NCBI GenBank assembly: GCA_017626135.1
Contig: JAGAJI010000017.1
Location: 1 to 34,666, forward strand
Direction: 5' to 3'
Length of the DNA: 34,666 bases
Source: Clostridia bacterium
Lineage (GTDB): Bacteria > Bacillota > Clostridia > Christensenellales > Borkfalkiaceae
A program made the translations under genes and the position numbers. Shown here in pieces: positions 10,967 to 13,933 of this stretch. Each line of letters begins with the position of its first letter. Positions within the stretch are counted from its first letter, which is position 1. Below the pieces are notes generated by a model. That model had not been told where the DNA came from. It did not search any database and worked only from the letters and a program-made list of their open reading frames with translations.

Positions 10967-11752
10967 TCATTTCAGCTTAAAAAACAAGTCCTTTGCGTTG
11001 GCAAGAATTTGCGTTTTCAGCTCCTCCAAATTTTCATTTCGAAGCTCCGCCATGTAATCGACGACGTGCTTTACGTTTTTAGGTTCGTTGGGAAAGGTAC
11101 CCCGAAAGGGCACAGGCGTGAGGTAGGGACAGTCCGTTTCCGATAAAAGCAGGGGGGCAGGTATTCGTTGAACACATTCTTGCACCTTTTTTGCATTCTT
11201 GAACGTACACGGTCCGCCGAAAGAAAAGCGCAAGCCGAGCCCGATAAAATCGGTCAGCATTTCGGGGGAATAGGAATAACAATGCATGAGCCCGCCCTGG
11301 CTTAAAAGCCCCTTTCGCTCCTTCAAAAATTCGAGCGTTTCCTGCGCCGCGTCGCGGCTGTGAATGACGACGGGGAGCCCGAGCTCGTCCGCGAGCTCCA
11401 ACTGACGATGGAAAAGCTCCCGTTGCAATTCGGGCGAAGGGTTGTCGTCGAAGTGATAATCCAGACCGATCTCCCCGACCGCCACGCACTTTTCGTGGTT
11501 GCACAGCGCGCGGATTTCGTCCAGATCCCCTTCGTTATATTTCTTCAATTCGCTCGGGTGAAAGCCCGCGCAAAAATAGACGTTATCGTAATTTTCGGCG
11601 AGCTCTTTCGCACGCTTGGAAGAGGGGAGGTCGAAACCCGAGCACACGACGAGCCCGACTCCGTTTTCCTCCGCCCTTTTCAGCGTTTCTTGCACGCCGC
11701 CGACTTCCTCAAATTCGTCCCCCGTCAGGTGACAATGTACGTCGATATACAT
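10967..11752 (-). CDS. tatD: TatD-family metal-dependent DNase
   Basis: This protein of 261 residues has an amidohydrolase-type TIM barrel. The first metal ligands are in YIDVHCHL (His6, His8), and further family motifs are VAVGEIGLDYH, PVVIHSRDA, GGLMHCYS and LSETDCPYLTPVPFRG. TatD proteins are 3'-5' DNases linked to DNA repair. I chose the ATG at 11752, preceded by AGGGAG, because it starts the conserved IDVHCH strand; a longer frame would run into the hairpin array upstream. The gene follows metG, as in Bacillus, and a radical SAM gene follows it. Codons for QRIPAPLL contain a plus-oriented copy (11154-11163) of the dispersed 10-mer. Confidence 0.95.
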   Translation of the reverse strand: MYIDVHCHLTGDEFEEVGGVQETLKRAEENGVGLVVCSGFDLPSSKRAKELAENYDNVYFCAGFHPSELKKYNEGDLDEIRALCNHEKCVAVGEIGLDYHFDDNPSPELQRELFHRQLELADELGLPVVIHSRDAAQETLEFLKERKGLLSQGGLMHCYSYSPEMLTDFIGLGLRFSFGGPCTFKNAKKVQECVQRIPAPLLLSETDCPYLTPVPFRGTFPNEPKNVKHVVDYMAELRNENLEELKTQILANAKDLFFKLK

Positions 11753-11773
11753 AGCGTTTCTCCCTATCAAGGT

Positions 11774-11929
11774 CAAGGGAATTATTCCCTTGCGCGGTTG
11801 TAAGGGCGCGGAGCCCTTACCGGGTGTGGGCAGAGCCCACCGCAACGCAGTTGCATAACGGACTCAAAAAAGCAAAACGCAGTTTTGCGTCCTGAACCGC
11901 ATAGCGGTTGTTGGCGTTGCAAAGCAACG
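11774..11929. repeat. Array of seven consecutive micro-hairpins
   Basis: Between the metG stop and the tatD RBS lie seven perfect inverted repeats in 156 bp: 11774-11792, 11800-11820, 11826-11840, 11842-11854, 11872-11888, 11895-11909 and 11915-11929. Stems are 5-9 bp, each of a different sequence. The last six all close with C on the left and G on the right of the loop (gcgga, aga, gca, gca, ata, aaa). The array ends exactly at the metG stop codon. I know no named family with this layout. It may act as a transcript-stability or processing region between metG and tatD. Confidence 0.8.
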
Positions 11930-13933
11930 TCAGCCCAACTGCGTGCCGCTCTCCACGTCCGTTTCGGGAACGATGAGGGAGAAGTTGCCCTTTTCGTCCT
12001 CGGCACCCAAAATCATGCCCTGCGATTCGATGCCGCAAATTTTTCTGGGCGCAAGGTTGGTCACGAATACCACTTTCTTGCCCACCATCTCTTCGGGCTT
12101 GTAATGCTTGGCGATCCCCGATACGATCGTACGGACTTCATCGCCGAACTTCACCGTCTCTTTCAAAAGTTTGCTCGACTTGGGCACCGCCTCACACGCG
12201 ATAATCTCCCCTACGCGGAGCTGTACTTTCATAAAATCATCAAAGCTGATTTCAGGCGTCTTTGCCTCTTCGGGAGTACCCACGTCTGCGTTGACTTCCG
12301 CTTTCGCCCCTTCCTTGGGCGCAAGTTTTTCCATTTCCGCCGCGTACGCCGCCGCCTGTTCGACACGAATCTTTTCAATCTCGGGCACAAGGTTCTTAAA
12401 ATCAAGTCGTGCAAACAAGGGCGGGATCGCCGTTACCGTCACGCTGTCGCGAAGAGCGAACTTGCCGCAATCTTCCAGCGAACGCGTTGCTCCGCCGAAC
12501 GCCGCGAAAATCTTTTCGCAGGTCTCGGGCATGAAACTGTCGAGCAGGCTCGCGCCGATCTGAATCGCCTCGGCAAGATTGTACAGTACGTCGCCCAAAC
12601 GTCCCTTTTTCGCCTCGTCCTTGGCAAGCGCCCAAGGCATGGTCTCGTCGATGTATTTGTTCGCCCTTCTGAACAACGTGAAGATCTCGCTGATCGCATC
12701 CGCGATACGGAGCTCATCCGCCTTCGCTCTCACCTTCGCCACCGTACCCGTCACCGTCGCTTTGAACTCGCCGTCGGGCTCCTCTTCGTTCGCAGGCAGG
12801 GACTTCACCACCGTGCCGCCGAAGTATTTGTCGATCATCGCGATCGTACGGCTGACGAGGTTGCCTAAAACGTTGGCAAGGTCGGTGTTGAACCGCTCGG
12901 TCACGAGCTCCCACGTAATCGACCCGTCGTTATCGAAAGGCATTTCGTGGAGCACGAAGTAACGCACGGCGTCCACGCCGTACAAACGTACCAAATCGTC
13001 CGCGTAAATCACGTTGCCCTTGGATTTGCTCATCTTGCCGTCCCCCTGCAACAGCCAGGGGTGACCGAATACCTGCTTGGGCAGGGGCTCCCCGAGCGCC
13101 ATCAGGAAGATGGGCCAGTAGATGGTGTGGAAACGCAGGATATCCTTGCCGATAAGATGCAAGTCCGCAGGCCAGTATTTTTTGTACTGTTCGCTATGAT
13201 TGCCGTCCACGTCGTAACCGATACCCGTGATATAGTTGCTCAACGCGTCCATCCACACGTAGATGACGTGACGGGGATCGAATTCCACGGGAATCCCCCA
13301 CGTAAAGGACGTACGGGACACGCAGAGGTCCTGCAACCCCTTCAAAAGAAAGTTGTTCATCATCTCGTTCCTTCTCGACGCCGGCTGAATAAACTCGGGG
13401 TGGGTGTTGATGTGTTCGATCAGTCGGTCAGCATACTTGCCCATCTTGAAGAAGTACGCCTCTTCCTTGGCGGGCTTGACCTCTCTGCCGCAATCGGGGC
13501 ATTTGCCGTCCACGAGCTGGCTCTCCGTCCAGAAGGATTCGCAGGGGGTGCAATACATTCCCTCGTAATACCCCTTGTAGATGTCCCCCTGATCGTAGAA
13601 TTTCTTAAACATCTTGCCGACCTGCTTCATATGGTCGGCGTCGGTGGTGCGGATAAATTTATCGTAGGACGTGCCGACGAGGTCCCAAATCCCCTTGATT
13701 TCTCCTGCGATCTTATCCACGTAGGCTTGGGGCGTCACCCCTGCCGCCTCCGCTTTTTCCTGAATTTTCTGACCATGCTCGTCCGTGCCCGTCTGGAAGA
13801 ATACGTCGTAGCCTTCCTTGCGCTTAAAGCGCGCAATCGCATCCGCCAAAATCGCTTCGTACGTGTTGCCGATGTGGGGTTTGCCCGAAGTGTAGGCGAT
13901 CGCCGTCGTGATATAATAAGGTTTCTTTTCCAT
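11930..13933 (-). CDS. metG: Methionyl-tRNA synthetase
   Basis: This class I synthetase of 667 residues charges tRNA-Met in the cytosol. HIGN lies at residues 20-23 (TSGKPHIGNTYEA) and KMSKS near residue 300 (GDGKMSKSKGNVI). A CX2C...CX2C zinc knuckle (CTPCESFW...CPDCGREV) is present in the connective insert. An anticodon-binding helical domain and a C-terminal tRNA-binding OB fold follow (FMKVQLRVGEII, NLAPRKICGIESQGMILG), which mediates dimerisation in bacterial enzymes. A Lys/Glu/Ala-rich linker joins the last two. The start follows GGAGAG. It has a good promoter with a 19-bp palindrome just upstream of the -35, and heads the metG-tatD-rsmA unit. Confidence 0.98.
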   Translation of the reverse strand: MEKKPYYITTAIAYTSGKPHIGNTYEAILADAIARFKRKEGYDVFFQTGTDEHGQKIQEKAEAAGVTPQAYVDKIAGEIKGIWDLVGTSYDKFIRTTDADHMKQVGKMFKKFYDQGDIYKGYYEGMYCTPCESFWTESQLVDGKCPDCGREVKPAKEEAYFFKMGKYADRLIEHINTHPEFIQPASRRNEMMNNFLLKGLQDLCVSRTSFTWGIPVEFDPRHVIYVWMDALSNYITGIGYDVDGNHSEQYKKYWPADLHLIGKDILRFHTIYWPIFLMALGEPLPKQVFGHPWLLQGDGKMSKSKGNVIYADDLVRLYGVDAVRYFVLHEMPFDNDGSITWELVTERFNTDLANVLGNLVSRTIAMIDKYFGGTVVKSLPANEEEPDGEFKATVTGTVAKVRAKADELRIADAISEIFTLFRRANKYIDETMPWALAKDEAKKGRLGDVLYNLAEAIQIGASLLDSFMPETCEKIFAAFGGATRSLEDCGKFALRDSVTVTAIPPLFARLDFKNLVPEIEKIRVEQAAAYAAEMEKLAPKEGAKAEVNADVGTPEEAKTPEISFDDFMKVQLRVGEIIACEAVPKSSKLLKETVKFGDEVRTIVSGIAKHYKPEEMVGKKVVFVTNLAPRKICGIESQGMILGAEDEKGNFSLIVPETDVESGTQLG

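Follow-up and report, generated by a model that had tools for sequence, protein, structure and literature searches.

Background

The closest described systems are families of small hairpins scattered through genomes. REP, BIME and REPIN are short palindromes of intergenic regions, tagged with GTAG and associated with RAYT, present in many copies, which form tandem and inverted mosaics and are patchily distributed among relatives (PMC3733652, PMC3116915, PMC2817692). The CGTC REPs, such as the neisserial dRS3 and the rickettsial RPE, are tagged dispersed hairpins for which a dedicated transposase is not known (PMC3733652). The BOX element of Streptococcus pneumoniae is composite (boxA-boxB(n)-boxC), with inner modules repeated a variable number of times between end modules, and folds when transcribed (PMC3049150). 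In sponge mitochondria, RHE are small intergenic hairpins, including double and triple ones (PMC2800124). Finally, hairpins maintained by template switching have been described for rRNA and microRNA genes, loop inversion being rare in rRNA (PMC8794818).

We analyzed the region between metG and tatD in a stretch of 34,666 nucleotides from a Clostridia bacterium, hereafter the window. An original prediction had noted there a row of seven perfect inverted repeats and had proposed that they either act at the RNA level or result from some process producing short palindromes.

Results

The metG-tatD region and its seven hairpins

Both genes lie on the minus strand. metG (11930..13933) encodes a methionyl-tRNA synthetase with a C-terminal tRNA-binding domain (Pfam PF09334 and PF01588), and the downstream gene tatD (10967..11752) a TatD-family DNase (PF01026). 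The gap between them measures 177 bp (11753-11929). The seven perfect inverted repeats predicted at 11774-11929 are all present. The element has a conserved 5' end, hairpin A (11774..11792, CAAGGGAA-TTA-TTCCCTTG), which is preceded by the tag AAGGT (11769..11773, plus strand). Hairpin B (11800..11820, GTAAGGGC-GCGGA-GCCCTTAC) is preceded by CGGTT and hairpin C (11826..11840, GTGGGC-AGA-GCCCAC) by CGGGT. Hairpin D (11842..11854, GCAAC-GCA-GTTGC) is the module most often absent from other copies. A conserved linker follows (11855..11871, plus strand; ATAACGGACTCAAAAAA, consensus GTAACGGACCCATAAAA), whose A-run at 11866-11871 reads T6 on the minus strand, and then hairpins E (11872..11888, GCAAAAC-GCA-GTTTTGC), F (11895..11909, AACCGC-ATA-GCGGTT) and G (11915..11929, CGTTGC-AAA-GCAACG). 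G is the final hairpin of this copy. As had been predicted, it directly adjoins the metG stop codon, TGA: G ends at 11929 and metG begins at 11930. A ribosome-binding-like AGGGAG is visible in the sequence between the array and the ATG of tatD.

The shared design that had been proposed is equally apparent: stems of 5-8 bp, loops of 3-5 nt, and a C-G closure of the loop in six of the seven hairpins. The segment holds seven hairpins, compared to a maximum of four in 5,000 dinucleotide shuffles. A search for similar groups, suggested along with the prediction, yielded 18 clusters of at least four hairpins in a 264-kb sample of the genome and none in shuffles; several of the 18 consist of unrelated hairpins.

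A dispersed repeat family

A blastn search with 301 bp around the array identified 11 further places in the same 1.47-Mb genome, which are hairpin arrays too, in the order observed in the window. A covariance model (R1) was then built from the first seven copies of this genome. It delimits the whole element in the window at 11771..11929 on the plus strand with 143.8 bits, the window copy being one of the seven training copies, and has about 50 matches in the genome, these seven included. The window array belongs to a dispersed repeat family, of which it is a single copy, and an inserted one as argued below, a point that the original prediction had not noticed.

The order of the hairpins, A-B-C-D-E-F-G, is fixed across copies. 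In the aligned copies of the genome, a tag (AAGT or GGT) leads to hairpin A (8 bp) and to a linker ending in GGTT or GGT; then come hairpin B, the linker CGGGT, hairpins C and D, the linker ACGGACCCATAAAA, hairpin E, and finally F and G. The element is about 130-160 bp long, its 3' boundary being approximate. Hairpin D is often but not always present, and E, F and G are sometimes repeated within the element. In the whole genus, a screen for 3-nt loops returned 95 perfect A hairpins; TCA, GTG and TTA are among their loops, and their tag is GGAAGT or GGGT.

Other repeats were observed in contact with the arrays. Four loci of the same genome (L120, L127, L130 and L134) have in common about 110 bp of inserted sequence (GCGCATATGCAGAGCGCGAACGGTGACCGA...) at the A/B-C junction, which may constitute a second repeat family. 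L005:1552-1900 contains two instances of another repeat (CATACGGTTTAACTTAAAAA[A]CGAACGGTAAGATAGTAAGA, then AGCGGAGCCACTCCGC), in and beside the array copy. The palindrome AAAACTTAACCATGGTTAAGTTTT brackets arrays, often on both sides, at L227, L231, L148 and L034:5850-6500 (genome G030; a MAG in L034).

Covariation and amplification of the copies

The variation of the stems was analyzed on 150 copies aligned to the model, an alignment which is fitted to the model structure and hence biased towards it: 95.1% of the cells at paired stem positions are paired, and two-sided changes are found at 42 of the 42 base pairs. Two-sided changes concern 1,095 cells (306 in shuffles) and one-sided changes 95. 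Among the first seven copies alone, 12 base pairs had changed on both sides, compared to a shuffled mean of 6.1. The conserved shape with varied sequence noticed in the window is thus seen across copies as strong covariation. Chance had been expected to show as arrays found nowhere else and pairing lost in relatives; what is observed is the reverse, with many arrays elsewhere and pairing maintained. Covariation alone is equally expected under selection on a folded RNA.

The copies amplify within genomes. For 107 of 139 copies the nearest neighbour belongs to the same genome, compared to about 17 when labels are shuffled, and the proportion is 95 of 135 when neighbours at the same locus are excluded. 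Identity among tandem copies is as high as 95-99%.

Insertion at metG-tatD and distribution in other genomes

Ten relatives were found through metG (best-segment protein identity 72-89%), most of them Clostridia MAGs from the ruminant gut. In all ten, metG lies next to tatD. In nine of them the gap ranges from -1 to 20 bp, versus 177 bp in the window, and the window array was found at this gap in none of the ten. The comparison with relatives that had been proposed thus has two outcomes: pairing is kept in copies located elsewhere, and the array is absent from the relatives' metG-tatD gap. Since nine of these gaps are short and all ten are array-free, the array is an insertion between metG and tatD. 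The tenth relative (L033, MAG RGIG3957) has a gap of 369 bp (L033:4001-4369) which contains tandem repeats of another kind, with a unit of about 60 bp; the metG-tatD gap seems to be open to insertions.

The distribution across the genus is patchy. Matches to R1 are found in 24 of 37 genomes, with 1 to 46 matches each, and the remaining genomes have none; the own genome aside, the number of copies varies from 0 to 46 across 36 genus genomes, which are draft assemblies. In the order, 5 of 396 genomes match at E <= 1e-8, two from the genus and one from each of three other families; among 398 genomes sampled in the phylum, the own genome is the sole match. For both searches seven candidates per genome were scored, and absences are to be taken as soft. 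The three matches from other families (G044, G095 and G288) have retained the arrangement GGGT-CAAGGG...CCCTTG, or one close to it, with further hairpins after GGG(G)T. G288 has arrays of several G+C-rich hairpins, most of them after GGGGT or GGGT (L247, L251, L254 and L256); many of its stems differ and their pairing is perfect. A very similar pattern was found in none of the 398 phylum genomes, and this pattern also misses the window copy itself.

The window array has no blastn match in phage and plasmid records, and the exact pattern of hairpin A was not found in viral contigs. A looser hairpin pattern is present in four viral contigs as two- or three-hairpin versions. Two of these contigs, from different metagenomes, carry a nearly identical three-hairpin array with GGGGT/GGGT tags (L261:6236-6312 and L262:4913-4990). 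The other two (L260 and L263) carry two-hairpin versions.

Orientation and loops

The orientation of the copies was compared to that of neighbouring genes, the latter being called by ORF length alone. Among single-orientation clusters of copies between co-directional genes, 27 have the orientation of the genes and 21 the opposite one (p = 0.47).

The loops of the last three hairpins obey a rule. When hairpin E is oriented by the A-run and not by its loop, the loops are distributed as follows: NNA in 86 cases, TNN in 35, TNA in none and neither form in 10. The NNA loops start with a purine and the TNN loops are of the reverse-complement form TNY, with one exception. Hairpins F and G behave as E, i.e. 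their loops are purine-N-A or its reverse complement, which indicates that either orientation of hairpins E, F and G is tolerated. Among control hairpins with a C-G closure elsewhere in the genome, 51 of 97 loops belong to neither form. When reverse-complement partners among the loops were tested within stems, the outcome was suggestive (p = 0.056); both loop states are partly sorted by genome and by stem, and independent flips of the loop may be few in number.

Taken together, the lack of orientation bias, the amplification within genomes and the loop rule favour a DNA-level, non-autonomous mosaic of the REP/BIME/BOX kind rather than a strand-specific RNA. Of the two explanations originally offered, a mechanism generating palindromes fits better than a function in RNA, given the orientation of the copies, the two-sided changes and the loops read both ways.

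Discussion

Origin and maintenance of the arrays

In our view the array is likely to be an inserted copy of a mosaic of palindromes, dispersed and non-autonomous, of the kind represented by REP/BIME and BOX. Such an element would be copied and kept as DNA. Single-stranded DNA, for instance the lagging-strand template, is probably where the hairpins form, and template switching between the two arms at replication probably preserves their complementarity while the stems drift; on occasion it would also flip the loop. Template switching is proposed because homogenisation of the arms together with inversion of the loop is its published signature (PMC8794818, PMC8604942). An effect on metG-tatD would probably be secondary, as some attenuation of the transcript or protection of its 3' end.

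The same step could be given the leading part. The arrays might be modular hairpin DNA independent of any transposase, in which template switching on single-stranded DNA keeps rewriting the perfect palindromes: stems would drift, arms would stay complementary and loops would flip between purine-N-A and the reverse complement, the spread being a by-product of replication or the work of a host enzyme so far unconnected with repeats. We hold this as a tentative possibility, rather improbable as a full account.

A structured RNA or UTR element, whose folded transcript would regulate or stabilise the metG-tatD mRNA, the dispersed copies acting likewise, is unlikely. The strong covariation agrees with it, and so does the predominance of single-orientation clusters between co-directional genes (48 of 62 classified clusters, along with 10 convergent and 4 divergent pairs). 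RNA of the minus strand also folds better than its shuffles (z = -4.0), but the plus strand folds equally well or better, as RNA (z = -4.8) or as DNA (z = -6.0). Orientation relative to genes is random, and the relatives' metG-tatD gap lacks the array. One-sided changes of the G.U type are rare (the 95 cells set against 1,095). Rfam was searched with 8 loci of the own genome and 8 from relatives and a viral contig, and no array matched a family at the gathering score. A strand-specific wobble was set aside overall: distinct stems with a single mismatch comprise 37 with G.T and 28 with A.C, a strand bias that is not clear. For hairpin A alone G.T exceeds A.C, with 10 versus 5 distinct stems, and 30 versus 5 when copies are counted; a separate count for A, 31 versus 6, was raised by the copies of a few subfamilies. 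This excess could hint at one favoured strand.

It is very unlikely that the array is a cluster of terminators or attenuators, in which E and its T-run would end transcripts and the other hairpins would trap RNA 3' ends. The absence of a T-tract that had been noted in the window holds on the plus strand only: on the minus strand hairpin E, which there reads GCAAAAC-TGC-GTTTTGC and whose stem has 3 GC among 7 pairs, is directly followed by TTTTTT (11871-11866) and is scored as terminator-like, and many copies have kept the A-rich linker that precedes E. Against this, a T-run accompanies one of the seven hairpins and in one direction only, the copies face either way relative to neighbouring genes, nothing comparable occurs in the relatives' gap, and a strong terminator here would separate tatD from metG.

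Two families of possible movers were searched, the Y1 (RAYT/TnpA) transposases (PF01797) and the reverse transcriptases (PF00078). That the arrays are REP-type or IS200/IS605-derived elements, once moved by a Y1 transposase since lost from the lineage, is very unlikely. A 5' end made of a tag and a hairpin, intergenic sites, inverted pairs and tandem copies do recall REP/BIME, and some members of the genus have Y1 genes. PF01797 has no match, however, in the own genome (94% complete), nor in most of the copy-rich genomes (G004, G005, G006, G014, G018, G022 and G023), whereas several genomes without copies possess Y1 genes, and the tag differs from GTAG. Y1/RAYT was rejected as the present mover, being absent here and its presence not tracking copy number. 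A reverse transcriptase or group II intron was also rejected, PF00078 having no match in the own genome; it is present in 8 of 57 genus genomes. No recurrent mobile gene (REPtron) was found beside the copies, whose neighbours are ordinary housekeeping genes.

Chance clustering of unrelated short palindromes, or an assembly artefact, is of negligible probability: 5-bp hairpins are indeed common (1,134 in 264 kb, compared to 810 in shuffles), but seven in one segment exceed what shuffles reach, and an identical array order recurs across many contigs, as well as in many genomes that were assembled independently, which refutes it.

Significance of the family

This repeat lies outside all Rfam families, and yet it reaches tens of copies in small genomes, of 1.5-2 Mb, which belong to uncultured Clostridia of the gut. 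More than 100 versions of one seven-hairpin plan with changing stems represent a natural experiment. They allow one to ask how perfect palindromes persist, by selection on RNA or by template switching on DNA, and what machinery moves REP-like DNA without RAYT. They also call for caution: strong covariation, usually taken as proof of a functional RNA, is possible as well in a repeat for which neither strand is preferred with respect to the neighbouring genes.

Comparison with known systems

By analogy, the element would work like a REP, BIME or BOX repeat, and we assign it to none of these families. With the GTAG REP, BIME and REPIN it shares dispersed, intergenic, tagged palindromes in multiple copies, tandem and inverted groups, and a patchy distribution. 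It differs by its tag, GGAAGT or GGGT instead of GTAG, by the set order of its hairpins, of which there are up to seven different ones, and by the lack of RAYT in the own genome. The tetramers most commonly found before hairpins with an 8-bp stem and a 3-nt loop are AAGT (59), GATT (27) and GGGT (25), and GTAG is outside the top 25. The resemblance to CGTC REPs concerns the 8-bp leading stem, the dispersion and the lack of a known dedicated transposase; the tag is, however, not CGTC (TGTC, CCTC), the loops are mostly of 3 nt whereas those of CGTC REPs have 4-5 nt on a stem of 8-9 bp, and the element is a composite of several hairpins rather than single units or dimers.

With BOX, compared by plan and not by the sequence of boxA, boxB or boxC, the element has in common a composite modular organization and a Gram-positive genome. 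Its stems, in contrast, vary with covariation, and its modules are mini-hairpins of 13-21 bp. RHE likewise consist of small hairpins spread through intergenic DNA, but their stems are conserved and their loops vary, whereas here the stems vary and the loops are bound by a rule; RHE are organellar and we claim no homology. In a possible parallel with hairpins maintained by template switching, two-sided changes keep the arms perfect and the loop may be inverted, with the difference that the hairpins described here belong to a dispersed repeat.
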